DNA of 64,000 nt from Bacillota bacterium. Its GTDB lineage: Bacteria; Bacillota; Clostridia; Christensenellales; UBA1242. The translations under genes were made by a program, and so were the position numbers. The notes below the pieces were generated by a model. It ran no database searches and was not told where the DNA came from. It was given only the letters and a program-made list of their open reading frames with translations. This document shows, one piece after another, positions 9,047 through 56,121 of the stretch (its first letter is position 1; every line of letters begins with the position of its first letter). The stretch spans positions 1 to 64,000 of the forward strand of contig WRBV01000003.1 in NCBI GenBank assembly GCA_009784375.1, read 5' to 3'.

Positions 9047-10639
9047 TTAACCGATTGATGATGGGGCTTCAGTTGCTGGGTCGATGTTGACTGTGCTTCC
9101 TGCTTTTGGTGTTGCTGGTTTCTTTGTCGCAGGCTTTTTTGCGTCTTTTTTTGCCGATGCCTTTGCAAGTTTTGTTGCAAGCTTGTTTGCATCTTTTACA
9201 ATGAATCCGACAAGGGTGTCGACGTCAAGGTTGTCCTTTATGCTGTTCATGAATGTTACCACGAGTGCTTGGTGAAGTGTTTCAAAACCAAGGTCAGCAT
9301 AGTTAGGGAAGTATTCTTCGAATGCTTTTTGAAGTTCTGGGTTCTTGAGGTATTCGATGATGTCCGCCTCGCCGAAGTTCTCAGATGCTGGGTTGAATGG
9401 GAATGCGTTGAATACTTGGTTAAAGTCATAGCCTTTTACAATGTGTTTATGCGATACAAGCACAAGAAGGTTTTCGAAGTCTTCTTTGTAACGGTAGTCT
9501 TTTACAAAGTCTTTTTTATAGAATTGAAGGTACATGAGGTGAAGTTTTTCAGAGATACGGACAAGGCTTGTTCCTTCTTTTGTTAATTCTACGAACATTG
9601 GGTATAGGCTCTTGTGTTCGAGGAATCTGCTTGCATCTATGAGGATCTCACAGAATTTGTATAACTTGTCACCAGTAGCCATCATAACGTGTTTAACTTC
9701 GTCGTGTTTGTCTTCGTGCTTTGTTACTATAACACGGTTGTATGGACTTAGACCAAAGCGGTCTTTGTATGCGTCACGATCCATAAGGAAGCAGGCAGCG
9801 GTTTCGACAAAATATTTTTCGATATGCTTTTCAACGTTTGGCTTGCTTAGTAGTGCTTTTTTCTCGGCTGCAGCCAATGCACGTTTTTCTTTGTTTTGTT
9901 GTGCTTTGTCGGCTTTTTCTTTTTCTAGTAAAGCGGCAGCAGCAAGTGCGCGTGTGAGTTCGTCAATTTTGTCTTGCAGTTCTTTGTTAAGTGCATCATC
10001 ACCTTCGGCTTGTTGTTTTGCAAGCTCTGCACGCATAGCAGCAAGTTCATCTTCGATTTTCTTTTTGTGGTCATCAAGGTCTTCTTGGATTTCTTTGATA
10101 CCTTCTTTTGATTCTTCGTATTCTTGAATTTGGACAAGTTGCGCCGCTTGTTCGTGAACCACACGTTCAAGTTGTTCGTTTTCCTCGCGAATTGCAACAA
10201 TGGCGTCTTGTTCAAGGTTTGTGAGTTCTTCGGTTACTGGGTCTGGTTCTTGTTGGATTATATAGGTGTTATTGATTGTAGTTGTGCTGTTCGTAGAGTG
10301 GTGTTGTGCGTATGGGTCGACGGCGACTGGTTGTTCGCGGTTTTCGAGAACTTTGTGAAGTGCATAAACAACAAGGTAGATTGCGGCAGGTATAGCACAC
10401 ACAAGACCAATTTGAAGAAGAGTATTTGCAAGAGCATGAGAATCTTCGAAAAAGAAGAAGATTATAATGGACAGCAGCATTATCATCAAGCCGAATGCTT
10501 GGATAACAAGCATGATGGAGACTATGCGTTTGCCTCCGAAGATTCGTCGGAACGAACCTGTGATTATTGTGAATACAATAAACGCGGTAAACACGACTGC
10601 AATTGCAAGGCCTACCCAAAACCATATAGTTAAGTTCAT
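9047..10639 (-). CDS. Membrane-anchored coiled-coil protein, unknown function
   Basis: 530 residues. Three hydrophobic segments near the N-terminus (about 5-28, 41-62, 72-94), then a Thr/Asn linker, then a long Glu/Lys/Ala/Gln-rich coiled coil (about 140-265). The C-terminal half is a helical cytosolic domain (about 270-490) that I do not recognise, ending in a Lys/Ala/Pro-rich tail. An AGGGG site precedes the ATG. The topology resembles cytoskeletal or division scaffold proteins, but that is only an analogy. It has its own terminator and no operon partners. Confidence 0.8.
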   Translation of the reverse strand: MNLTIWFWVGLAIAVVFTAFIVFTIITGSFRRIFGGKRIVSIMLVIQAFGLMIMLLSIIIFFFFEDSHALANTLLQIGLVCAIPAAIYLVVYALHKVLENREQPVAVDPYAQHHSTNSTTTINNTYIIQQEPDPVTEELTNLEQDAIVAIREENEQLERVVHEQAAQLVQIQEYEESKEGIKEIQEDLDDHKKKIEDELAAMRAELAKQQAEGDDALNKELQDKIDELTRALAAAALLEKEKADKAQQNKEKRALAAAEKKALLSKPNVEKHIEKYFVETAACFLMDRDAYKDRFGLSPYNRVIVTKHEDKHDEVKHVMMATGDKLYKFCEILIDASRFLEHKSLYPMFVELTKEGTSLVRISEKLHLMYLQFYKKDFVKDYRYKEDFENLLVLVSHKHIVKGYDFNQVFNAFPFNPASENFGEADIIEYLKNPELQKAFEEYFPNYADLGFETLHQALVVTFMNSIKDNLDVDTLVGFIVKDANKLATKLAKASAKKDAKKPATKKPATPKAGSTVNIDPATEAPSSIG

Positions 10640-42206: not shown

Positions 42207-45005
42207 TTACGTTTGTGTGCGCTTGCGTCGGAAGTGGAACACAAGGAATATAATAACGCCTACCGCACCGAGAATTGCAAGGATGATACCCATTAATTGA
42301 AGTGCAGACAAACCGTCCATAACGATATAACGGGTCCAGACATAGCCATACATATTAATTTGTGTGTATGAACAAAAGTAACGAATGCGGGTAAGTGGAG
42401 CGTTTCTGTCGAATTGACCGATTACAGCTATGCGTTGACGGTTTTGAAGATATTCGCCCACGATGTGGTTGACTCCGCCATTATCCGAGAATACTGGAAT
42501 TCCATTTGGATATTGATTTGTTGAAAAAACAACGCGTGCATTTGGGTTAAGTATCTCACCACTTGGCGGAAGATTAAAGTTAATAACATGTTGGACAAAT
42601 ACATAACCGACATGAGTGCCATTTGGGTTAGGTGTACCATCCGTGTTTATTCGGATTTCAAAGAATTCCCATCCGCGGATGTCTTGTACGGTAATCCTGC
42701 GGTTAATTGTCAATCCTTGTTCGCCTCGACGAGTTTTGTTTAATGTACCGACCGTAAGGTCAAGAACGGTACTTGTCGGGTATTTAAAAATAGGTACACC
42801 GTTCAAAATGACTCGACCTATGTTTTGCGGGTTTGGGCTGCCATCATTGCCCCATAATTCGGAATCAATATAATAATCAGACTTGGGTGTAATAAACCGA
42901 TTGTTAACGTAACCAGTATAGTGGTTACGAGTTATTTGGTTTTGGAAAAGGATATAGCTGTAATCGAATGGTATACCATTGAAGTAGGTGGTACTTTGAA
43001 GGATTTGGAACACAAAGCCTGGTTCAAGACGTGTTTGTGCACCGATAGAATTTGGGAATTCAAACATAGATGGACGACCAAGAGTGTTAATAGTTCCAAA
43101 GAGCGGAGCAGTCGGAATGAGAATAGGACTTGCGACTTGCCAATTATAATGTGGTCGCATTGCACCAGTAGTGAAATTTGTTGTAAATGACCAAAGTTCG
43201 GTCAAATCTTGTAAACATACCGATTCGATAACGTGTTGGTGACCCAACCAGAAAAGTTGATTATTCATCCGATCAAATGTAAGAGAAGAATTTCCAAGTG
43301 ATGTTGTAGACCCTTCGAGTATCATTGGGGTACCAGCATCAAACGAAAACGAGCTGCCAACTAATTCAAGTTCGATGTGTCGGAATACAGCATTACGACT
43401 TGCATTTTCATACAAGGCAATCAAGTTCCCGAGTGTATCTGTTGTAAGGTCAAGAAGAAAGTGTCCAGCCAAGTTTAATTGGGTTGTGATGATTGTCTGT
43501 TCGTTGGTCTCAAGACAAATTGCGACATGGACGTTGCCCGTGGCACCAGTATTCGTAAGGAAAAGAGTATCATGCTCGCCAACCCATGGGTTGATTACTG
43601 CACGTGTGTCGCGTGAAATCTGCCGCCCTAGACCAAGTGGCTCAAGTCCATTATTTGTGATTGCAAAAACGTCATTACGTGCAAAATCAATTGCAAACAT
43701 TTCACCTGTTGCAATGTTGGGAACAAGTTCGATGATTTCACTTGTTGTTGGAGCGGTAATAACAGAGCCACTTCGGCTTCCATCTGTATTGAAGCGGTGA
43801 ATACGTCTGTCACGGTCATGAGCGTATATGGTATCCATGTTATTAAATGCCATCGAACGTATCACAGACAGCGATTGGTTGTAATGTAAAAGTGGAGTAG
43901 GAAGATTGGTTGTATTTGTATCAAGCAAACGCACAGAAGACGAAAAATCGGCTATCCAGAAGACACCTTCGTCAATCATTGTAAAAGCGGTAGGGTGGTT
44001 AAAAAATCCATAATCGTCACCAATCGATCCCGCAACAGTTTGATGGAATTCAAGTATAGTATTCGGAAGGATTCGATATTGGTCGATACTTCGTTTTACC
44101 GCATCAATTACAAAGACTTCGTTTCGACTTCGGGCACGCAAGTATATTGGTGCATAACTTTCTCTCATTAAAAAGTCATCTTCGTTTCTTGGTGTAATTT
44201 CGTAATAGCTGTTTTGTTCAAGGTCGACAAGGCTTGCAAGATTGAAAAGGACAATTCTGTTTCTTGCAATAAATACAAAGTTCATTCCACCGTCTTCGAT
44301 AAGGTTAAATGAAGACGGGCTGTAGAAACCTTGGCTTAGAACATCGCCGCTTGTAGTTTGGATGGAGAATAACAATGCATTTTCAGGGTCAGATGCAAGA
44401 AGATAAATTTCTCCACCGATTGTTGCAGTAATACCGCGAATTTGTTGGCGAAGTGTTATCAACGAGCCAAATTGTTGATTCATAGAACCAAGCACGGTTT
44501 GATAGCCATAGCGATTGTCATGAGCGTAAAGGACACGGACGGCATTTGCAGGTGTTGCAAGTGGGACTACCGAAAAAATACTCATCTCATCACCGCTTGT
44601 TGTGTATTGAAGACGGCTTGCAAAAGAAAAGGTAAAACCAGGTGTACGAATGTTTGCGGTAGCATAAATATAAAATCCAGTATCAAAGAAAATATGCAAA
44701 TTGTTTCTTGCATAGATAATGTCGCGTGGACGACTTGGCAATGCTATACGGGATATTGTTTGGCTTGTGGATTTATTAATTATATTAAGCCGATAGTTTG
44801 AAAGTTCTTGTTCGACTGCGTAAATAAAATTGGTAGAACAGATTGCAAGCATCTGTGGTCGTGACAAAAAGTTAAAATTAACACCAGGTTGGGTTACATG
44901 CTGCGATTCGCGTGTTGATGCATTTGACCCCAGCACAGAAACACCACCAAAAAACACAAGCACACACAATGCACATGATAATGCAAAGACAATATATTTT
45001 TTCAT
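42207..45005 (-). CDS. Large surface protein: beta-propeller-like domain plus SH3-like repeats, C-terminal anchor
   Basis: 932 residues from the ATG at 45005. A signal peptide (about 2-22) is followed by a long region of repeated four-strand units (NNLHIFFDTGFYIYA, GEIYLLASDPEN, GVFWIADFSSSVRLLD, DTIYAHDRDRRIHRF), the pattern of NHL/Kelch-like beta-propellers. Near the C-terminus two SH3b-like segments (about 760-830 and 850-895) start with VPIFKYPTS and IPVFSDNGG. A final hydrophobic helix (about 901-924) and FRRKRTQT anchor it, so the bulk is outside the cell. Binding partner unknown. A TATAAT overlaps its ATG and is not a usable -10 for it. Confidence 0.78.
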   Translation of the reverse strand: MKKYIVFALSCALCVLVFFGGVSVLGSNASTRESQHVTQPGVNFNFLSRPQMLAICSTNFIYAVEQELSNYRLNIINKSTSQTISRIALPSRPRDIIYARNNLHIFFDTGFYIYATANIRTPGFTFSFASRLQYTTSGDEMSIFSVVPLATPANAVRVLYAHDNRYGYQTVLGSMNQQFGSLITLRQQIRGITATIGGEIYLLASDPENALLFSIQTTSGDVLSQGFYSPSSFNLIEDGGMNFVFIARNRIVLFNLASLVDLEQNSYYEITPRNEDDFLMRESYAPIYLRARSRNEVFVIDAVKRSIDQYRILPNTILEFHQTVAGSIGDDYGFFNHPTAFTMIDEGVFWIADFSSSVRLLDTNTTNLPTPLLHYNQSLSVIRSMAFNNMDTIYAHDRDRRIHRFNTDGSRSGSVITAPTTSEIIELVPNIATGEMFAIDFARNDVFAITNNGLEPLGLGRQISRDTRAVINPWVGEHDTLFLTNTGATGNVHVAICLETNEQTIITTQLNLAGHFLLDLTTDTLGNLIALYENASRNAVFRHIELELVGSSFSFDAGTPMILEGSTTSLGNSSLTFDRMNNQLFWLGHQHVIESVCLQDLTELWSFTTNFTTGAMRPHYNWQVASPILIPTAPLFGTINTLGRPSMFEFPNSIGAQTRLEPGFVFQILQSTTYFNGIPFDYSYILFQNQITRNHYTGYVNNRFITPKSDYYIDSELWGNDGSPNPQNIGRVILNGVPIFKYPTSTVLDLTVGTLNKTRRGEQGLTINRRITVQDIRGWEFFEIRINTDGTPNPNGTHVGYVFVQHVINFNLPPSGEILNPNARVVFSTNQYPNGIPVFSDNGGVNHIVGEYLQNRQRIAVIGQFDRNAPLTRIRYFCSYTQINMYGYVWTRYIVMDGLSALQLMGIILAILGAVGVIIFLVFHFRRKRTQT

Positions 45006-45113
45006 TATAAACAAGGGTAGCATGTTTGTTCCATTTTTCAAAATCAATTAAAAGAATAATACATACACGATGTCGTGGTATCAGTTCAATTTAAAAAAAT
45101 TATGTTTGAATGA

Positions 45114-45338
45114 TTATAACTCGGGGTCGTCATAATACGGACCGTCATCATCGTCAAAGCTGTTGCGATATGGTTTGAAGTTTGGTTTTGACTTTCGTCG
45201 TGGACTCTTGCGGCGAATTGGGCTTGCGTCTTCGGCGTCTTTGAAAAACCATCCGATGCGGACTGGAATAAATGCGAGCAAGATAATCGCTGCGACTGCG
45301 ACAATGCTCACAATGATTATGGGTAGAAGTTCCATCAT
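45114..45338 (-). CDS. Small single-pass membrane protein
   Basis: 74 residues: one N-terminal helix (about 3-25) followed by a basic stretch (RRKSPRRKSKP) and an acidic end (DDDDGPYYDDPEL), so it is probably inserted with its tail in the cytoplasm. No family recognised. It lies upstream of the large surface protein on the same strand, 108 bases before its start. An extended -10 TGCTAGCAT ends 6 bases before the ATG (leaderless type). Confidence 0.65.
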   Translation of the reverse strand: MMELLPIIIVSIVAVAAIILLAFIPVRIGWFFKDAEDASPIRRKSPRRKSKPNFKPYRNSFDDDDGPYYDDPEL

Positions 45339-45391
45339 GAATTAATGCTAGCAAAATATCTGTGTCGAAATATAGGATAAAGGCTTTAAAT

Positions 45392-46783
45392 ATGCAAGAA
45401 TACGTTGAAGATTTAAATTTGATTGAATACGAAATTGAACGGCGCAAGTCAGGTTTTTATACATATAACACAGGTAAAACAAAACATTCAAAACAGATCG
45501 GCTTTCACCAAGATATACATAAATCACGTTGGGTTTTTGGTGGTAATAGAACGGGCAAAACCGAGTGTGGTGCGATAGAAGCGATATATTGGGCGACAGG
45601 ATTGCATCCTTATCGTGATATCAAAAAAAGTACAGATGGTTGGGTTGTGTCACTCTCGTTGCAGGTACAACGCGATGTTGCCCAGGCAAAGATACTTAAG
45701 TATCTGTCGCCCGAGTTTATTGTTGATGTTGTAATGCGAAGTGGCAAGAGCGAGAACCCAAAGAACGGAGTAATAGATTTTATTTCTGTGCGTAACAAGT
45801 TTGGTGGAATAAGCAAGATTGGATTCAAATCTTGTGACCAAGGACGAGAAAAATTCCAAGGGACAAGCCTTGATTGGGTTTGGTTTGATGAAGAACCACC
45901 TGAGGACATATATGAAGAATGTTTACTTCGAACACTCGACCGTGGTGGTATTGTTTGGGGGACGATGACCCCGTTAAAAGGGCGGAATTGGCTTTATAAC
46001 ACGATTTATCTTGATTCGGATAGGCACAGCATTCATCAAATGAGCTGGGACGATAATCCATTCCTTTTACCAGATGAAATTTATGAAATGGAAAAGAGGC
46101 TTTCACAAGATGCATTAGAATCTAGAAAGTATGGACGATTTACATGTGGCGAAGGTCTTGTATTTCCAGAGTTCGGCGATGAAAACATCATCGACCCAAT
46201 ACCAATGCAAGAGTTTATCGGATATAACTTTTTAATTGCAATAGACCCAGCATATGTGGCACCGACTGGGGTTATATGGGTTGCGACAAATGGCGAGGAT
46301 TACGTTGTTATCCATGATTACTCGGTTTCACATAAGACTGTTGCCGAACATGCCCAGGCAATTCTTGACAAGACCAAACAACTTGGTATTACCGAATATA
46401 CCGTTTTAATTGATAATTCATCGTTGCAAAGAACTTTGGTTGGACGCGATACGGTCGAACAACAATTCAAGGACAATGGGCTTGATGTGAATGCAAGTAT
46501 CAACAAGAATGTAATGGAAAGCATTATGAAAATGAAGACATTGTTAAAAGATGTTAACGGTGTACGTAGGTTATTTATTACAAGAAATTGTATAAACCTT
46601 GTACGTGAAATACGTGGTTATTATTGGGGAGATAATGATAGACCAGTTAAAAAGAATGACCATTGTATTGATGCGCTTCGTTATGTGGTTATGCATGATT
46701 TAAATTCTGGGAAAAAGGCAAAACAAAATATCCTTGGTGAAAAGAAGAGTGAGTTGTTGAAGATGGCAAAGAGAAACTTATAA
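45392..46783 (+). CDS. terL: Phage terminase large subunit
   Basis: 463 residues from the ATG at 45392 (an in-frame GTG at 45362 gives ten more). The ATPase half has Walker A GGNRTGKT and Walker B DWVWFDEEPP with coupling motif MTPLKG. The nuclease half has the acidic residues of an RNase H fold in LIAIDPAY, VLIDNSS and NDHCIDALRYVV. Both halves look complete, so the motor and nuclease could be active. TerL cuts and packages DNA into a procapsid. First gene of a phage-type cassette; no terS precedes it. RBS is weak (ATAAAGGC). Confidence 0.92.
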   Translation: MQEYVEDLNLIEYEIERRKSGFYTYNTGKTKHSKQIGFHQDIHKSRWVFGGNRTGKTECGAIEAIYWATGLHPYRDIKKSTDGWVVSLSLQVQRDVAQAKILKYLSPEFIVDVVMRSGKSENPKNGVIDFISVRNKFGGISKIGFKSCDQGREKFQGTSLDWVWFDEEPPEDIYEECLLRTLDRGGIVWGTMTPLKGRNWLYNTIYLDSDRHSIHQMSWDDNPFLLPDEIYEMEKRLSQDALESRKYGRFTCGEGLVFPEFGDENIIDPIPMQEFIGYNFLIAIDPAYVAPTGVIWVATNGEDYVVIHDYSVSHKTVAEHAQAILDKTKQLGITEYTVLIDNSSLQRTLVGRDTVEQQFKDNGLDVNASINKNVMESIMKMKTLLKDVNGVRRLFITRNCINLVREIRGYYWGDNDRPVKKNDHCIDALRYVVMHDLNSGKKAKQNILGEKKSELLKMAKRNL

Positions 46784-46861
46784 CTCACCTTTCATTAGCT
46801 GTCACGATGACCGTTTAATTTCACAAGTCCATGATTTAATGCGGGTGTAAGGGAGTATTAG

Positions 46862-47098
46862 ATGGACAAGGAACTTATAGAAAGCTTGCGTAAATTGGCA
46901 ATAGGTTATTTTGAAGAGGAGATCGAGATAACCGATGACAAGCAAAAGCGAAAAATCAAATACCATGCACCAAAGATTGAGGCGATACGTGAACTTGGCA
47001 ATATAAAGCCAAAAGAAAATAGATTCGAGTTCATGAGTCATGACCAATTAATTGCAGAGGTCGAGAGAATTCTTGAAGAACTTAGAAGGATAGAATAA
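46862..47098 (+). CDS. Small phage-cassette protein
   Basis: 78 residues, charged and helical (IESLRKLAIGYFEEEIEI ... LIAEVERILEELRRIE). AAGGGAG precedes the ATG and its stop overlaps the portal ATG. It might be a small terminase subunit out of its usual place, or a portal-associated protein; neither can be shown. Confidence 0.65.
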   Translation: MDKELIESLRKLAIGYFEEEIEITDDKQKRKIKYHAPKIEAIRELGNIKPKENRFEFMSHDQLIAEVERILEELRRIE

Positions 47099-48567
47099 TG
47101 AAAGAAATAATTTACAGAAAACCAAAGAAAATTGAAAAGACAAGCCGAGCTGAAAAATTAAGGAGTGAACTTGTATCAAATGTAATTGCCGATTACGAGG
47201 AACGTAAATTAAAACGTCGTGAGTTTGAATTGCAATGGCGTTTAAACCTTGATTTTTATGCAGGCAAGCAAAACAGCATTATTACAAGTTTCGATACTCT
47301 TGTAAATGTGGGTAAACAATTTCATTGGCAAAGAACGGATAGCTTTAATCATATTGCACCAATTGTAGAAAGTCGACTTTCAAAGATTACAAGCCACAAG
47401 GTAGATATTGAACCAACGCCAGACACAGACGAGCAACATGATATGGATGGTATACCACTTTGCAAGAAGATACTTGAATCGGCGTTTGCAAAGACCGATT
47501 TCGATGCCATGGTAGAACAGGCAACAATGTGGAGTGAAGTAACAGGCAGCGTGTTCTATAAAGTATATTGGGATAATAATGCGGGTTCAGTTCTGGGGAT
47601 GATAAAGCAAGGAGACACGGAAAACGAGATTCGTGATGGTGATGTTTGTATATCCATTTGTTCACCATTTGAAATTTTCCCAGACAAAATTTGTGCATCA
47701 TGTATGGGCGAGATTTCAAGTTTGATCCATGCCAAGTATCTCTCGCATCAGGTAATTAAAGAAAGCTGGGGTGTGGATTTGAGTGGATACGCCGAGGACA
47801 ATATTCTTGTGATTGAAAGGTACCAGGTTCCAACAAAGGCTTATCCGAATGGGCGGTTTGTTATTATTGCGATGGATAAATTGATTTATGATGGCGAACT
47901 TCCTTATATTAACGGTGAAGATGGTAAACGAACAATTCCATTTGTACGTCAAGTGTCCGAGGGAATGGTTGGATCGTTCTATGGTCGAAGCGTCATTGAA
48001 CGAGCTATTCCAGTCCAGCGTGCATATAACGCAATTAAAAACCGCAAAGTTGAATTTTTGAACCGATTGGCATGTGGAGTATTGACCGTTGAAGAAGGAA
48101 GTGTTGACATAGAATCGCTGGAGAATGATGGTCTTGCTCCTGGTAAAGTTATTGTATATCGTCATGGGACCACGGCTCCCAAATTCTTAAATACGGGAAG
48201 CTTGCCTGCCGAACTTGAACGTGAGGAAGAACGATTATTAAAAGAGTTCGAGCTTGTAAGTGGTGGTGGGGACATAATGCGAGGTCTTGAGAATGGAAAT
48301 GTAAGCGGGGTTGCACTTGCAATATTGACCGAGGAAAATGACCGCAGAATGAACAGAACAATACAAGCCATGGTGCGTGCAAAGATGGTAATTGCATGCC
48401 ACATTCTTCGATTATATAAACAATTCGTGACAAGCAGGCGACTTGAACGAATTGTGGGTGAGTCAGGGGTCGAAATGTTTGACTTTGACCAAGCGGCGAT
48501 TACATGTCGGAATGTGATTGTAAGAAATGCTGGGATGATGAAAGGAGAAATGAATGAAGGAAATTGA
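47098..48567 (+). CDS. Phage portal protein
   Basis: 489 residues. A basic N-terminus with RRREFELQWRLNLDFYAGKQN and a long C-terminal region (PVQRAYNAIKNRKVEFLNRLACGV ... SGVALAILTEENDRRMNRTIQAMVRAK) match portals of the P22-like group, in which a long stem helix follows the PVQRAYNAxRN motif. The portal forms the dodecameric DNA gate at one capsid vertex. It overlaps genes on both sides, showing tight translational packing of the cassette. Confidence 0.87.
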   Translation: MKEIIYRKPKKIEKTSRAEKLRSELVSNVIADYEERKLKRREFELQWRLNLDFYAGKQNSIITSFDTLVNVGKQFHWQRTDSFNHIAPIVESRLSKITSHKVDIEPTPDTDEQHDMDGIPLCKKILESAFAKTDFDAMVEQATMWSEVTGSVFYKVYWDNNAGSVLGMIKQGDTENEIRDGDVCISICSPFEIFPDKICASCMGEISSLIHAKYLSHQVIKESWGVDLSGYAEDNILVIERYQVPTKAYPNGRFVIIAMDKLIYDGELPYINGEDGKRTIPFVRQVSEGMVGSFYGRSVIERAIPVQRAYNAIKNRKVEFLNRLACGVLTVEEGSVDIESLENDGLAPGKVIVYRHGTTAPKFLNTGSLPAELEREEERLLKEFELVSGGGDIMRGLENGNVSGVALAILTEENDRRMNRTIQAMVRAKMVIACHILRLYKQFVTSRRLERIVGESGVEMFDFDQAAITCRNVIVRNAGMMKGEMNEGN

Positions 48568-49018
48568 AGTTGTGGAACAATCTGATGTTGAATTTAAAAT
48601 GGATAACGGGGATGGTCTAGAAAATCCTTGCCCATCGGTTCAAGACGAAGACTCCACCAATATATATGGGAATTTTGCAAATGCCGATGAATTGTTCAAG
48701 GCATATAGAAATCTTCATGCCGAATTCACGCGTAAGAGCCAGGAACTGCGAAAACTTGAAACGGTAAATGATAAAAGTGAAACGATAATGGATACAACAA
48801 AGACGTGTGATGTCAATGATGAAAAGGTTGAGAATCCATTAATTGTCACTAGATCAGTTGATGATGTAATACGTGATTATTTATTCGGAATAAAGCAAGG
48901 CAAAGTTCCACCCATCGTTATAGGAACCGCGACAAACGCGACAACTTCTGTTGATGGTATCCGTACTATGACCGAGTCAGATAAACTTGCAAAAACTTTT
49001 TTTGCAACAACTAAATAG
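48554..49018 (+). CDS. Phage scaffold-like protein
   Basis: 154 residues between portal and major capsid, the usual place of a scaffolding protein. The N-terminal half is acidic, followed by a helix FANADELFKAYRNLHAEFTRKSQELRKLE (a pattern common in P22-type scaffolds near ADEL-x-x-Y-x-x-L). RBS AAAGGAGAA. No protease motif visible. Assignment rests on position and composition. Confidence 0.6.
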   Translation: MKEIEVVEQSDVEFKMDNGDGLENPCPSVQDEDSTNIYGNFANADELFKAYRNLHAEFTRKSQELRKLETVNDKSETIMDTTKTCDVNDEKVENPLIVTRSVDDVIRDYLFGIKQGKVPPIVIGTATNATTSVDGIRTMTESDKLAKTFFATTK

Positions 49019-49028
49019 GAGGACAGAT

Positions 49029-50240
49029 ATGATTACAATTAATACAGCCGAGAGTGCTTTGAGAAATATTTATTTGGAAAGCGTTATCCATGATATTAAT
49101 GAAAAGACAAACCCATTTCTTACAATGATAAGAAAAAATACAAAAACAATAGCAGAGCGTGATGCAAAAGCAGCAGTCCGTTTTGGATCAGAAGGAAGCG
49201 TTGCGGCGGGTGAGGAGGATTCAATACTTCCAACGGCGCACGATGCTCGCCAGGCAGAGATTGTTACACCGCTTAAAAACCTGTACGGAACCTTTCAGAT
49301 TACGGACAAGGCAATTCGCGCAGCACAAAACAGTCCAGGTGCGTTCACAGCACTTGTTGGTGGCGAGATGAAGAATCTTGTTGCCACAGCACAGACTAAT
49401 CTTAACCGTATGGTTTATGGAAGCGGCAATCCGTTTCTTGCTTATACGCTTACACATAATGCTCCCACACGTACTTTTCAAGTACCAGCAAGATTTCGCG
49501 ACAATTTGCGTGTTGGACAACAAATTGTTGTCATGAACTCAAACAATCAAGTTTTGAATACAAATGTGATTAAAATTACAAATGTAGTTGCATTCATTCC
49601 AGACTCATCAAGATTAAACGTAGTATATACAGGCGATGTTCCAGCAACAAAGTTTGACCGTCTATATCTTTTCCCAGCCGAACAATCGAATCTTGAGATG
49701 AATGGTGTAGACAGTCTTTTCATGCAGGACAGACTTTACAATTTGAAAAGAGAAGACTATAAAGAAATTCTTCCATTTACAAGCTTTGATAGTGGAGAGG
49801 ACCTTAATATCATTAACGAGGATGTTCTTATTGAATTCTTTGATGGGCTTGAAGAACATGCGCAAGGTCAAGTATCGGACATTATCTTGACACATCCAAA
49901 TGTACGCAAGGCGTTGTTTGAAAATCTTCGTGATACAAGAAATAATATTGATGTGACCGAGTTTGCTGGTGGTTTCCGTGGATTTACATTTAATGGAATT
50001 CCAATGTATGCAGACATTCGCTGCATGGCAGGTACAGCATACGCACTTCACAGCGAATCCTTTGCTATGCAACAACTTTGTGATTGGACTTGGCTTGAAG
50101 GCGATGACGGTTCAATTCTTCGTCCGATAAGTGGCAAATCTGTTTATAGTGCAACTCTTGTGAAGTATGCTGATCTTGTTTGTGAAAAGCCATTCTTGCA
50201 AGGCAAGTTGACTGGTTATAGTGCTTTGCAATGGAAGTAG
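49029..50240 (+). CDS. Phage major capsid protein
   Basis: 403 residues from the ATG at 49029 behind AGGAGGACAG, the strongest ribosome binding site of the cassette, as expected for the most abundant structural protein. NPFLTMIRKNTKTIAERDAKAAVRFGSEGS ... LKNLYGTFQITDKAIRAA looks like the SU10/DUF5309-type HK97-fold capsid group, in which an N-arm and E-loop precede a TQIxxxAxxxS-like strand. No frameshift or stop interrupts it. Confidence 0.8.
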   Translation: MITINTAESALRNIYLESVIHDINEKTNPFLTMIRKNTKTIAERDAKAAVRFGSEGSVAAGEEDSILPTAHDARQAEIVTPLKNLYGTFQITDKAIRAAQNSPGAFTALVGGEMKNLVATAQTNLNRMVYGSGNPFLAYTLTHNAPTRTFQVPARFRDNLRVGQQIVVMNSNNQVLNTNVIKITNVVAFIPDSSRLNVVYTGDVPATKFDRLYLFPAEQSNLEMNGVDSLFMQDRLYNLKREDYKEILPFTSFDSGEDLNIINEDVLIEFFDGLEEHAQGQVSDIILTHPNVRKALFENLRDTRNNIDVTEFAGGFRGFTFNGIPMYADIRCMAGTAYALHSESFAMQQLCDWTWLEGDDGSILRPISGKSVYSATLVKYADLVCEKPFLQGKLTGYSALQWK

Positions 50241-50262
50241 CCTGATTATAATAGGAAAAATA

Positions 50263-50646
50263 ATGCAACAGATAACAAACGACCTGTTTGATATAGCGAA
50301 CAGATTAAAACAAATTGACGAGCAATATAATGTGTTTTTTGATTCGGTAAAGGAAAGATACGAGGTTCATTCATTAAATCTTGGATATTCGTCTCCGAAT
50401 CCAAACACGCTTGAGTTTATTGTTCCATATCCAATTTTGGATGAAAGAACATTAACTCGTGCAATGCGTACGCGAAAAGAAAACGAATATGAAATACTTG
50501 CCGAGATTGAAGAACATAACAAACTTATTGAACAGAGTGCGTACGACGCAATGAGCCAAGAGTTAAAACGGTTTGAAGACATGTTCTCATATGCATATCA
50601 AACGGGTCGTGATGTTACCTTTGCAAAAAGGAGAGAATGGATATGA
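50263..50646 (+). CDS. Hypothetical phage-cassette protein (connector region)
   Basis: 127 residues, two helical stretches around a short beta region (LEFIVPYPILDERTL). It occupies the slot just after the capsid gene, where head-completion or adaptor genes lie. AGGAAAA precedes the ATG. Its stop overlaps the next gene. Confidence 0.6.
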   Translation: MQQITNDLFDIANRLKQIDEQYNVFFDSVKERYEVHSLNLGYSSPNPNTLEFIVPYPILDERTLTRAMRTRKENEYEILAEIEEHNKLIEQSAYDAMSQELKRFEDMFSYAYQTGRDVTFAKRREWI

Positions 50647-51200
50647 AAATAAAACAGATATTGAGTAATGTGGCAGAAATACTAGGGCTTGCAGATGTTG
50701 TGGAATTGGTTAAATCAAACGTGGCAATTAATGAACTTCATCAAAATACAAATTATAGATTATTGCTTCGTTGTGCCTCTTTGGTTGTTGCAAATCTTGC
50801 GACTCATTATTCGGAAATAACGCATACACAAAGAGTTAATACACAAATCAATGGGCGAATTAATTTTTCTGTATTTGAACATCCGCCGACAAACATAAAA
50901 ATGGTACGTCAAATTACGGGCGAGAGAATGCGGTTTCGAACATTTATTGATCACATAATCGTAAATCAACCAGGAAAATTTGATGTGACATTTACTTATG
51001 TTCCAAAGATAATATCAGGAAATGAGACCAATCCATTTCCGTTGCCGCCTGCTGCACTTGAGTATGGGATTATGGCGGAATATGCGTTTCTGAGTGGTAT
51101 GTTCAACGAAGCCCAGGTATGGAATGAAAAATTCGGCGAGATGATATTTGCATCGGTAAAAAAGAACGGCAGGTCTGTGACAATGCCACGGTCATTCTAG
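50643..51200 (+). CDS. Phage head-tail connector-like protein
   Basis: 185 residues from the ATG at 50643, nine bases after AAAGGAG. N-terminal helices (IKQILSNVAEILGLADVVELV) and a middle LLRCASLVVANLATHYSEI, followed by beta-rich segments and a helical end, resemble the gp4/gp6-type adaptors that sit beneath the portal. An alternative ATG at 50637 is too close to the ribosome site. Function by position. Confidence 0.6.
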   Translation: MKIKQILSNVAEILGLADVVELVKSNVAINELHQNTNYRLLLRCASLVVANLATHYSEITHTQRVNTQINGRINFSVFEHPPTNIKMVRQITGERMRFRTFIDHIIVNQPGKFDVTFTYVPKIISGNETNPFPLPPAALEYGIMAEYAFLSGMFNEAQVWNEKFGEMIFASVKKNGRSVTMPRSF

Positions 51201-51210
51201 GGTGGTGGTT

Positions 51211-52203
51211 ATGTTACGAAATTTAAAGTTGCGACCCACGCGGAGTATTTCATTTTCAGTCGAAAACTATACAGTACAAACATCAAGAAAGCGTCCAATA
51301 CGAAATCGAATATATGCAAGTAATAACACAGGATTTAATGCCACACCGACAAAGTTAACACGCAGTAGTGAACATCAAGCAAGAGGTAATGGAATAGCAA
51401 GACAAGAATCTAACCAGCACATGGATCTTGGACTTCGCCGTTTTGTTATACATAACCAAGACACAGTAAAGTTTTCTTCACCTTTTGACAAGGATGACTT
51501 TATAACCGAGGGTTCAAGTGGTCAATTCAAAGTTGACGAACGATTTGGCAGGTTGCTTGGGCTTGAATTATTTGGCAACAAATTGCTTGTTATACAGGAA
51601 TTTGGTTTTTCAACATTGGACATTGCGTTTGATGCAAGTGAGTTTAATTTGCAGATTTTGGTAAAGACATATGAACACATTATTCCAAATACCGCAAGGG
51701 TGCTTGGTGATACTGTATTCTTTTTGACTGCGGGTGGGATGTGTCGAATTCGACGAGGCATTGTGGAATTGCTTGATATTGATGTTGTGTTTAATGTTGC
51801 TCACAAATACGTGTCTGTAATACATCAAAACCGTTATCACCTGGTATTGGAATCGAAAATCTTGGTTATCGAAAAGTTCTTTGATTCGTTTTTTTACATA
51901 GATAAAAATTCAGACAATGCAAAATGGGCAACAGATTTTTTTGCACTTGGCTATGCGGCAGACAGACAATTTCTCAAACAAATACGACTTTGTACAAGTA
52001 GTGATTTAACAATAGTTATAGTCACAGAGTCTCGCGAACAACGCATCAATGTCCGCGGTCGAAACAATGTACAACGTATTAATTTGAATATCAAGGGCGA
52101 TGCGTTCAAGATAGAATTTGAAACAAATGCCGAGAATATTGAAATTAGTAATCTTGTTGCTGTGGTCGGATTTTTGCCAAGTGGATATCGTGCACTTGTA
52201 TAA
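51211..52203 (+). CDS. Phage-cassette beta-rich protein, possible tail-hub or stabilisation protein
   Basis: 330 residues. After a basic N-terminus the protein is almost all short beta strands in a repeating order (RLLGLELFGNKLLVIQEFG, ARVLGDTVFFLTAGGMCRI, YVSVIHQNRYHLVLESKIL), which suggests a beta-propeller or similar sheet, as in the P22 gp10-type hub below the connector. AGGGTGG precedes the ATG. If so the particle would be short-tailed. Confidence 0.5.
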   Translation: MLRNLKLRPTRSISFSVENYTVQTSRKRPIRNRIYASNNTGFNATPTKLTRSSEHQARGNGIARQESNQHMDLGLRRFVIHNQDTVKFSSPFDKDDFITEGSSGQFKVDERFGRLLGLELFGNKLLVIQEFGFSTLDIAFDASEFNLQILVKTYEHIIPNTARVLGDTVFFLTAGGMCRIRRGIVELLDIDVVFNVAHKYVSVIHQNRYHLVLESKILVIEKFFDSFFYIDKNSDNAKWATDFFALGYAADRQFLKQIRLCTSSDLTIVIVTESREQRINVRGRNNVQRINLNIKGDAFKIEFETNAENIEISNLVAVVGFLPSGYRALV

Positions 52204-52213
52204 GGGAGAAAAT

Positions 52214-53089
52214 ATGGAATTAATTAATTTGGATCAAATCAAGTTTAATCAAATTGCAAGACAAAAACTTGCAGCATTCGAGCAAGTATCAAAGATGGAA
52301 TCTTTTAATCAAAACTTTGATTACCTTACCGATAAAGAAAGGGTAGAGATTAATCTTATTATGGCGCGGACATATCGAAAGTATAATGTGGGTGGAACCG
52401 ATGTTCCAGATCTTGTCGAGATACCGCGACCATTAACATGGGAACAAGCGAAACAACAAGCAATCGAAGAAGCCGAACGCTTGAATGTAATTCGTATAGA
52501 TCGAATTAATGACGAACAGAGCAAGAGACGAGAACGTCAATTACTTCGCAAACAAAGGATAAACGAACAGTACAAAGCGCGTATTGCCCGTATAAACACG
52601 GATGCGGGACGCAGAGGAATTTTGAACAGCACAATTGTGTTGAATCAACTTGAGCGGGCTCATATCGCCAAACAAGAAGCCGAGACAGCAATCAATGACG
52701 AGATAGAGTTTATCGAGGTTACAAGAAATTCGAGAATAGACCAACAAAACACTACGTTTGAACAAAGGGCAGAAGCTCTTGCAAGACGAATTCATATAGA
52801 TAGTGTTCGTATTAATGTGCAAGCAATACGCGAAAAAGCAGTTCAACGCAGCCGAGCGTTCAGGGACCTTATACATCTGTCTCAGGTTCGTTTGACAACA
52901 CCGATAAATACTCAGACAATGATAGACCAAGAAATCTATGACGAGTACGTAACATTTCTTGTCAAACAACTGCCTAGGCGTGCGGTTAGTCTTGTCAGCA
53001 ATGATCCTGTGTTCTTTTTTAATTTACCGCATACAATGTGGTTGCGGTTATATAATGAATTCAATAGACGAGTCTCAGACATTACATAA
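52214..53089 (+). CDS. Coiled-coil phage-cassette protein
   Basis: 291 residues. The centre (about 75-235) is a long Arg/Gln/Ala/Glu-rich coiled coil including RRERQLLRKQRINEQYKARI; the ends are less regular. Phage proteins of this type can be internal virion, ejection or fibre-shaft proteins. It is too short for a tape measure of a long tail. RBS AAGGGAGAA. Confidence 0.6.
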   Translation: MELINLDQIKFNQIARQKLAAFEQVSKMESFNQNFDYLTDKERVEINLIMARTYRKYNVGGTDVPDLVEIPRPLTWEQAKQQAIEEAERLNVIRIDRINDEQSKRRERQLLRKQRINEQYKARIARINTDAGRRGILNSTIVLNQLERAHIAKQEAETAINDEIEFIEVTRNSRIDQQNTTFEQRAEALARRIHIDSVRINVQAIREKAVQRSRAFRDLIHLSQVRLTTPINTQTMIDQEIYDEYVTFLVKQLPRRAVSLVSNDPVFFFNLPHTMWLRLYNEFNRRVSDIT

Positions 53090-53103
53090 AGGAGAAATAA
53101 ACC

Positions 53104-53322
53104 ATGTGGGAAGAAATTATATCAATAGCAATTAATCATGGGCTGATGACGGCATTGTTTGTGGGGCTTATGGTATATGTATTAAAAGATGGCCGCAAGC
53201 GAGAAAAGAAATATCAAGACACAATTGAAAAGCTTGCCGAGTCTTTGAAGATTGTTCACGAAATTCAAGAAACGACCAAAGAATTAAAGAAAGATGTGAA
53301 CGAAATTAAAATCAAAATTTGA
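53104..53322 (+). CDS. BhlA/UviB-type holin-like protein
   Basis: 72 residues: one N-terminal helix (about 12-30, GLMTALFVGLMVYVLKDGRKREKKY split across it) followed by a charged coiled coil with a Lys-rich end. The VLK-x-GRKREKKYQ transition is typical of BhlA/UviB holin-like proteins of Firmicute phages. It would permeabilise the membrane during lysis. No endolysin follows. RBS AAAGGAGAAA. Last gene of the cassette. Confidence 0.8.
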   Translation: MWEEIISIAINHGLMTALFVGLMVYVLKDGRKREKKYQDTIEKLAESLKIVHEIQETTKELKKDVNEIKIKI

Positions 53323-53473: not shown

Positions 53474-53875
53474 ATGGAAAACGAACAAATTGTTCAAGAG
53501 GAAAAAGTGGACCTTCCACTTGGTGCAGACACCGAAAAAAAGGAAAAAACTGTCAAGGCTGCATCTGTGAAGCCTGTTGCAAAAAAACAAGTAAAGGTCG
53601 AGGCAAAGGATGCTTTGTCACAACTTTCAAAAGCAGAAATAATTAGAGAATACGGAAAGAATGAAAAAGATACTGGTAATGCTGCCGTTCAAATCGCTAT
53701 TTTAACAGCACGAATCAATCACTTGACCGAACACCTAAAGATCCACAAACAAGACAAGCACAGCCGTCGTGGTCTTATGCAAATGGTTGGTCAAAGGAAA
53801 GGTCTTCTTTCATATCTTGAAAAGAAAGATGTTGATGCATATCGTGAATTAAAAGCAAAGCTTGCTATACGTTAA
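53474..53875 (+). CDS. rpsO: 30S ribosomal protein S15 with an N-terminal extension
   Basis: 133 residues. The S15 core starts near residue 47 ([35 protein letters not shown]) and ends with the [25 protein letters not shown] signature. The first 45 or so residues are a Lys/Glu/Val-rich extension absent from normal S15 (about 89). AAAAGGAGAA precedes the ATG. rpsO-pnp is a universal pair. Confidence 0.97.
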
Positions 53876-54036: not shown

Positions 54037-56121
54037 ATGACTGATAATTATAAAAAATTTGAAACAGCAATTGGTGGACGTGCAGTTATCGTCGAGACTG
54101 GTGCACTTTGTGGGCTTGCAAATGGAAGCTGTACGGTAACATGTGGCGAAACGGTAGTAATGGCAAACGTTACAATGGCGGATAAACCACGTGTGGGTCA
54201 AGATTGGTTCCCACTTGGAGTGGACTTTGAAGAAAAGTTGTATAGTGTTGGAAAGATTCCAGGCGGATATCGCAAGCGCGAGGGCAGACCTGCGGATTCT
54301 GCTGTACTTACGTCTCGTTTAATCGACAGACCACTTCGTCCATTGTTCCCAGACGGTTTCTTTAACGATGTTTCGGTTGTTGTAACCGCATTATCGGTTG
54401 ATCCAGAAATTTCACCAGAACCGCTTGGGATGCTTGCATCATCTATTGCACTTGTAATAAGTGACATTCCATGGAATGGTCCAACAGGTTCGGTCTTGGT
54501 TGGCAGAATCGGTAAAGAATTTGTAATCAACCCAACAACTACCCAGCAAGAAGAGTCGGATCTTCACCTTGTCATAAGTGGTACTGAAAAAGCGGTATTG
54601 ATGGTCGAGGCGGGTGCAAACGAGATTACCGAAGCGGACATGCTTGCGGCAATTATATTCGGACACGAAGAAATCAAACGCCAGGTCGAGTTCCAAAAGA
54701 CAATCGCAAAAAAGATTGGAAAAGACAAATTTGAATTTGTTGCGACCGAGATTGATGAAACACTTGTGGATCGTGTAACAAGCTATGCGACAAGCTTTCT
54801 TGAAAAGGCATTGAATGAGACTGACCTTGAAAAGCGTCGTGCTGCCGAGTCCAAGGTTGACGAAATGGTGCAAGACCAATTCAACGACATTTGGGAAGAG
54901 TCAAAGAAAGATATTGAATCACTTATGTACGACATAAAAAAGAATGTTGTGCGTAACAAAATTCTTGAAAAAGGTCTTCGTCCAGACGGTCGTGGCACAA
55001 AAGATATTCGTCCGATTTGGACAGCAACAGGAATGTTGCCGCGTGTACATGGTTCAAGTGTATTCACACGTGGAAGTACCCAGGTTCTTAATATTTGTAC
55101 ACTTGGAATGGTGAGTGATGCGCAACGTCTTGACGGTCTTGATGACGAAGAATCAAAACGTTACATGCATCATTACAACATGCCACCGTATGCAACGGGC
55201 GAGGCAAAAAATATGCGTGGTACAAGCCGACGCGAGATCGGTCACGGAGCTTTGGCTGAACGTGCGCTTGAACCTCTTCTTCCGTCTGAATGCGAGTTCC
55301 CATATGCAATAAGAACGGTATCCGAGGTACTATCAAGTAACGGTTCAAGTTCTATGGCATCGGTGTGTGCGTCTTCTATGTCGCTTATGAATGCGGGTGT
55401 TCCAATAAAGGCGGCATGTGCGGGAATTGCGATGGGTCTTATCAAGGACGAAGAATCAGGAAAAGTTGCAGTATTATCAGATATTTTGGGTGTCGAGGAT
55501 TTCCTTGGCGATATGGACTTTAAGGTTGCGGGTACCGAAAAAGGTATTACCGCAATTCAAATGGATATGAAAATCGCAGGTATTGACGAGCCAACATTGA
55601 AAACGGCGCTTGCCCAAGCAAAAGAAGGAAGAATGCACATATTGAAAAATATGAATTCGGAAATTTCAAAGCCAGCTGAGAAGCTTTCAAAATATGCTCC
55701 AAAAATAATCATCATCCAAATCAAGCCAGAAAAAATTAAAGATGTCATAGGTTCAGGCGGAAAGGTAATTAACAAAATTATCGAGGATACTGGTGTTAAA
55801 ATCGATATCGAAGACGACGGAAAAGTATTCATTGGTGGTATGGATGATGCGATGAACCAAAAAGCACGTTCAATAATCGAAAGTATTGTATTCGAACCCG
55901 AGGTCGGCATGGAATTCGAGGGCAAGGTTATGCGTACAATCGAAATCGGTGCATTTGTTGAATTTGCATATGGTAAAGAGGGTATGGTACATATTTCAAA
56001 ACTTGGGACTGGTGCTCGTGTTGAAAAAGTAACCGACGTTATAAAGGTCGGTGACACGGTCAAGGTCAAGGTTATTAAAATCGACGACAAGGGCAGAGTA
56101 GACCTTCAAAGAATTGTTTAA
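54037..56121 (+). CDS. pnp: Polynucleotide phosphorylase
   Basis: 694 residues. Two RNase PH domains (the first with YSVGKIPGGYRKREGRP, the second with FTRGSTQVL and AGVPIKAACAGIAMGL), the KH domain with DVIGSGGKVINKIIEDTG, and an S1 domain ending DDKGRVDLQRIV. It degrades RNA 3' to 5' with phosphate. RBS AGGAGAAAA. It follows rpsO after a terminator. Confidence 0.98.
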   Translation: MTDNYKKFETAIGGRAVIVETGALCGLANGSCTVTCGETVVMANVTMADKPRVGQDWFPLGVDFEEKLYSVGKIPGGYRKREGRPADSAVLTSRLIDRPLRPLFPDGFFNDVSVVVTALSVDPEISPEPLGMLASSIALVISDIPWNGPTGSVLVGRIGKEFVINPTTTQQEESDLHLVISGTEKAVLMVEAGANEITEADMLAAIIFGHEEIKRQVEFQKTIAKKIGKDKFEFVATEIDETLVDRVTSYATSFLEKALNETDLEKRRAAESKVDEMVQDQFNDIWEESKKDIESLMYDIKKNVVRNKILEKGLRPDGRGTKDIRPIWTATGMLPRVHGSSVFTRGSTQVLNICTLGMVSDAQRLDGLDDEESKRYMHHYNMPPYATGEAKNMRGTSRREIGHGALAERALEPLLPSECEFPYAIRTVSEVLSSNGSSSMASVCASSMSLMNAGVPIKAACAGIAMGLIKDEESGKVAVLSDILGVEDFLGDMDFKVAGTEKGITAIQMDMKIAGIDEPTLKTALAQAKEGRMHILKNMNSEISKPAEKLSKYAPKIIIIQIKPEKIKDVIGSGGKVINKIIEDTGVKIDIEDDGKVFIGGMDDAMNQKARSIIESIVFEPEVGMEFEGKVMRTIEIGAFVEFAYGKEGMVHISKLGTGARVEKVTDVIKVGDTVKVKVIKIDDKGRVDLQRIV

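Follow-up and report, generated by a model that had tools for sequence, protein, structure and literature searches.

We report that a cassette of ten phage morphogenesis genes is likely (probability roughly 0.78) to be an ancient, domesticated, podovirus-like gene transfer agent (GTA) that the order Christensenellales has retained, its expression, particle formation, host-DNA packaging, release and delivery being inferred. Its gene content and intactness, distribution, gene order, purifying selection, the fold of its tail nozzle, the absence of a helix-turn-helix (HTH) from its small terminase (TerS) and an unlinked homologue of an activator are shown. Most studied GTAs belong to Alphaproteobacteria, and the first report of a short-tailed GTA, from a single genus, dates from as late as 2026. 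A selectively maintained short-tailed cassette found across an order could explain the GTA-like packaged DNA of this group that human stool has already yielded and, if it is a GTA, it would represent a built-in route of DNA exchange for gut bacteria with very small genomes. No description of the cassette was found in the literature searched, which excludes preprints and most subscription papers.

In the window (here defined as the whole 64,000-nucleotide stretch of DNA that was analysed), the cassette spans positions 45362-53322 (Table 1). As the preliminary description, made from sequence alone, had claimed, its ten + strand genes are all open and each overlaps or abuts its neighbour; for the large terminase (TerL), an ATG at 45392 is an alternative to the start at 45362. 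The claim that there is no integrase, replication gene, lysin or att repeat also held: Pfam and PHROG searches recognised none of the three kinds of gene in the cassettes of the window or of sampled relatives, a search of the window found no att-type direct repeat flanking the cassette, and a repressor is absent from the window cassette. Similarly, the codon usage was confirmed to be host-like (RSCU correlation 0.947; GC3 0.33 vs 0.34). The S15 and PNPase genes do lie directly to the right (rpsO at 53474, then pnp at 54037), although as cassette neighbours they are limited to the closest genera. Two assignments were corrected, the ‘small protein’ after TerL being TerS and the ‘beta-rich’ gene encoding a podovirus tail nozzle. 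On the left, the divergent gene c3 precedes TerL across the order. The large protein c10 adjoins the cassette in 21 of 73 loci; the window protein has no Pfam match, and a relative contains an NHL repeat.

Table 1. Cassette genes and left-hand neighbours in the window, with the basis for each assignment.
Feature	Position	Strand	Basis
c10, large secreted/membrane protein, neighbour of cassette, no assigned role	42207..45047	-	c10 profile 1e-220
Short membrane protein, possible remnant of divergent gene c3	45114..45338	-	weak match to c3 C-terminus (0.003); same place and strand as c3
TerL, large terminase (ATPase + nuclease), packaging motor	45362..46783	+	Pfam Terminase_6N 6e-13, Terminase_6C 2e-6
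TerS-like small terminase without DNA-binding HTH	46862..47098	+	order-wide c9 profile 9e-10
P22-type portal	47098..48567	+	Pfam P22_portal 6e-16; order-wide portal profile 4e-207, positions 4-502 of 632
Scaffold-like protein, middle part absent	48554..49018	+	family-wide profile 2e-34; between portal and capsid in compared loci
Major capsid protein	49029..50240	+	PHROG major head protein 2e-25; family-wide profile 1e-148, full length
p6, small conserved protein after capsid gene, no assigned role	50263..50646	+	family-wide profile 5e-40
p7, head-tail adaptor candidate	50637..51200	+	family-wide profile 6e-58; weak PHROG adaptor match 0.15; precedes nozzle gene
p8, podovirus tail nozzle/hub (beta-propeller), shortened; predicted	51202..52203	+	predicted models match podophage nozzle proteins
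p9, coiled-coil protein, divergent form of order-wide c16 (DUF7934-like)	52214..53089	+	profile-profile hhalign E 1.3e-6; common RG(I/L)xxSxIVxNQ stretch
BhlA-family holin	53104..53322	+	Pfam Holin_BhlA 7e-13; family-wide profile 2.5e-36

In TerL, the Walker A motif GGNRTGKT, the FDEE motif and the acidic residues of the nuclease domain were invariant among 28 aligned genomes. The protein after TerL was identified as TerS because a longer member of the same c9 family matches a PHROG TerS (phrog_309) at 1e-5. In a phage-like contig bearing the same module (L249), TerS consists of an N-terminal HTH followed by the domain found in cassette TerS; the window TerS begins at this conserved domain itself and, when aligned with the phage TerS, the HTH is missing. 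At 54 of 64 cassette loci no more than 23 residues of open frame precede the domain, which is too few for an HTH, and at eight further loci the 30-64 preceding residues contain no HTH recognisable by eye. An HTH-like stretch was seen only in families f13 and f33. Phage and these two families with a DNA-binding domain in TerS, and the rest without, thus provide a natural series in which a transition from phage to GTA could be studied. According to a 2024 review, the TerS of known GTAs all lack a DNA-binding domain, which may account for non-specific packaging (PMC11841831). In the f13 and f33 loci (L171 and L184, respectively) TerS lies upstream of TerL and retains its HTH-like N-terminus; this arrangement may be the ancestral or a still phage-like form.

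The best solved relative of the portal is GP4, whereas p7 had no match among solved structures. The model of a full-length relative of the nozzle (pLDDT 88) matched the podophage proteins 9nwi_Y of Pa223 (TM 0.75), VP1 (0.73) and P22 (0.58-0.63). The model of p8 from the window was weaker (pLDDT 67) yet returned the same top matches; its assignment as a podovirus tail nozzle is thus a model-based prediction that rests on structure. One could argue that such a particle does not transfer genes but, like PBSX of Bacillus subtilis, binds and harms competitors (or acts as a decoy), with any packaged DNA being incidental. PBSX, a domesticated prophage that packs host DNA but does not inject it and acts as a tailocin, offers a precedent in Bacillota (PMC12946183), and the holin and nozzle are conserved in our cassette. 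However, the core set contains no receptor-binding or tail-fibre gene, head and portal have been kept along with a packaging motor whose catalytic residues are invariant, and the loss of the HTH from TerS points to DNA packaging; we therefore consider a killing or decoy particle unlikely. PBSX is long-tailed and has a larger gene set.

The distribution of the cassette also supports the GTA reading. TerL is present in 5/5 genomes of the window’s genus and in 137/147 genomes of its family (41/42 genera), and the capsid gene likewise in 137/147 (42/42 genera); from the two lists, 133 family genomes have both and 6 have neither. Each gene is found in 100 of the 106 high-quality family genomes, mostly as one copy per genome, and the family retains the cassette although its genomes are only ~1 Mb. 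In the order, the capsid gene occurs in 139 of 248 genomes from at least 17 families. In a class-wide sample of 391 genomes, it was present in 14 of the 19 from the window’s order and in only 12 of the 372 others, five of the 12 belonging to one genus. Named records with the cassette (Candidatus Borkfalkia, Christensenella sp. UBA5489 and many Clostridia MAGs) also point to Christensenellales. The traits of a temperate prophage are lacking: the window cassette has no integrase, repressor or att site, and the distribution is near-universal rather than sporadic.

The gene order is equally constant. We compared 73 loci collected around TerL or capsid, in which the common order is c4 (+), c3 (-), TerL, TerS, c11, portal, scaffold, capsid, p6, p7, nozzle, a few variable genes, c16, the BhlA holin and a second holin. 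In all 56 loci holding the six core genes (TerL, portal, scaffold, capsid, p7 and nozzle), which come from 15 families, their order and strand are identical; within the window’s family, several genera have TerL at a distance from the rest of the cassette. In families f1, f8, f15 and f20 the cassette is adjoined by the chromosomal genes c12 and c15, and their recurrence in four families argues for one ancestral site. The joint retention of all morphogenesis genes also bears on the alternative that capsid and terminase genes are kept as phage-derived immunity, interfering with infecting phages of the same type. In its favour, some metagenomic copies have defence genes (type I restriction, McrBC) immediately downstream of the capsid gene; however, what is kept is the full morphogenesis set and not just an inhibitor or two, and TerS lacks only its DNA-recognition part, making this explanation very unlikely.

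The cassette is being kept under purifying selection. Within-genus pairs gave dN/dS values of ~0.06 for TerL, 0.06-0.11 for portal and 0.06-0.17 for capsid, considering only comparisons where synonymous sites can be estimated; values for the other cassette genes were higher but mostly <0.35, with one p7 comparison at 0.62. In the window’s own genus synonymous sites are saturated (pS ~0.7-0.95; pN 0.15-0.49). Very few internal stops were detected in the frames of relatives. FastTree trees of TerL+portal+capsid and of PNPase, the one marker used for the host, have 7 of 26 splits in common (shuffled labels: mean 0.24, maximum 2), and the Mantel rho of 0.60 between cassette and PNPase was reached by 0 of 999 permutations. 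The two trees agree for genera and families but conflict at deep nodes, partly via the long branches of the window lineage, and in the non-f1 families alone the cassette-PNPase correlation is weak, so that transfer between families or long-branch error is still possible. We therefore infer vertical inheritance at shallow depth only; co-speciation at depth, judged by one marker, is just partly congruent.

The searches returned no complete phage whose genes are nearly identical: GenBank phages reached at best 21-26% identity, and the capsids of phage-like relatives are ~21-46% identical to those of cassettes. Most close ‘viral’ matches in IMG/VR turned out to be copies of the cassette itself; for example, the capsid of L207 is identical to that of genome G001. 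A recent complete phage with identical genes was rejected on this low GenBank identity, the high-identity IMG/VR matches being cassette copies, and a lone defective prophage on distribution, selection and gene order. Dozens of cassettes (L207-L248, mostly pieces of 5-16 kb) are filed as viral contigs in IMG/VR, which means that a viral sequence collection counts them as viruses. It could still be argued that related temperate podophages, or satellites encoding capsids, inserted repeatedly and independently and left many defective prophages. Phage-like contigs with the same module (L249, L006/L007 and L259), an amidase-encoding, prophage-like locus from a different clostridial family (L192) and the deep tree conflicts are consistent with this. 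The near-universal and mostly single-copy presence, the lack of integrase or att, the identical gene order, the low dN/dS and the chromosomal neighbours common to four families all speak against it, and we regard it as very unlikely.

The preliminary description had proposed a domesticated or GTA-like locus, to be refuted by its presence in this genome only, by decaying frames in relatives or by a recent complete phage with identical genes. The first does not apply given the family and order counts above, nor does the second given the scarcity of internal stops and dN/dS of ~0.06-0.17 for TerL, portal and capsid, and no phage of the third kind was found. Its reading is thus supported, with particle formation and DNA transfer inferred. 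Its claim that such a locus would be new held in part, since a podovirus-like GTA in Clostridia has a precedent in FpGTA of Faecalibacterium (PMC12946183, Nat Commun 2026), the nearest known system, which forms 40 nm particles containing 8.4-8.9 kb of DNA. The likeness is inferred from architecture alone: both reside in gut Clostridia, and the operon of FpGTA (~10 kb) likewise encodes a TerS devoid of a DNA-binding domain together with TerL, portal, scaffold, capsid and short-tail proteins, and contains no replication or phage metabolism genes. In contrast, FpGTA is carried by all 12 Faecalibacterium genomes examined and was found in that one genus, whereas the cassette ranges over an order; its TerS lies upstream of TerL, whereas that of the cassette follows TerL in most families; and it has a second operon for baseplate, fibre, receptor-binding protein, holin and endolysin, whereas the cassette has its holin in the main operon and no second operon is known. 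The same study lists three GTA-like packaging events in ‘Christensenellaceae’ (HGM11616/QANA01) without giving an operon, and they have no established link to the cassette described here.

RcGTA and related alphaproteobacterial GTAs resemble the cassette in their TerS without a DNA-binding domain, their unlinked regulator and a head and packaging cluster that is inherited vertically, which for the cassette is supported at shallow depth. For RcGTA, which is long-tailed (siphovirus-like), gene transfer is proven, whereas here it is inferred. Podophages of the P22/GP4/Pa223 type have in common with the cassette the P22-type portal (GP4), the nozzle fold (Pa223, VP1, P22) and a similar order of head genes but, unlike it, are complete viruses that carry genes for replication, lysis and receptor binding.

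As we envisage it, a phage-type late activator, c4, would switch the operon on, and capsid, scaffold and portal would assemble a procapsid. TerL and a TerS without a DNA-binding domain would begin non-specific packaging on host DNA, headful cutting would fill the head, and adaptor and nozzle would seal it with a short tail. Release is inferred to depend on the BhlA holin, joined in many relatives by a second one, and on a lysin that is either unlinked or provided by the host, and the particle would carry chromosomal fragments to neighbouring cells. Against the GTA reading, neither particles nor packaged DNA nor transfer have been observed in this lineage, and there is no linked lysin or receptor-binding gene. 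The c4 homologue matches phage late-gene regulators. In the window’s genus it has moved away from the cassette, an unlinked homologue being present in 5/5 genomes; in the window’s genome it stands alone on contig 2, near 90485-90973. No second GTA operon was recognised around the unlinked c4 in the four genomes whose surroundings were read.

In the window’s lineage the cassette is trimmed: portal, nozzle and scaffold are all shortened, the portal lacking the last ~130 residues present elsewhere in the order, and the second holin, present in many relatives, was not found at the locus in this lineage. This could indicate a reduced or failing version and weighs against the GTA reading. By a modest margin, we favour a bolder reading, namely that a P22-type podophage was domesticated once, early in Christensenellales, and gave rise to an order-wide short-tailed GTA, including in genomes of ~1 Mb, that this GTA lineage ranks among the most widespread ones outside Alphaproteobacteria and serves uncultured gut Clostridia as a main route for exchanging DNA, and that the trimmed, ~8 kb version in the window is still functional.

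Several loci depart from the common form. Several genera of the family have two major capsid genes in tandem, separated by a few tens of bases (G005:C2:8035-9204 and 9219-10370 at locus L040; likewise genera g2, g15, g28 and g41), and a second capsid subunit could possibly alter particle geometry. In families f19 and f29, extra genes of ~330, 620 and 80 residues lie between nozzle and c16 (L176:4356-7491 and L180:4381-7455); they are without a clear database match and might encode fibre or receptor-binding proteins. Finally, in metagenomic copies, type I restriction genes, or McrBC with a cytosine methylase, directly follow the capsid gene (L225:8658-14182 and L243:13203-19467), and the cassette may thus be a hot spot for defence genes.
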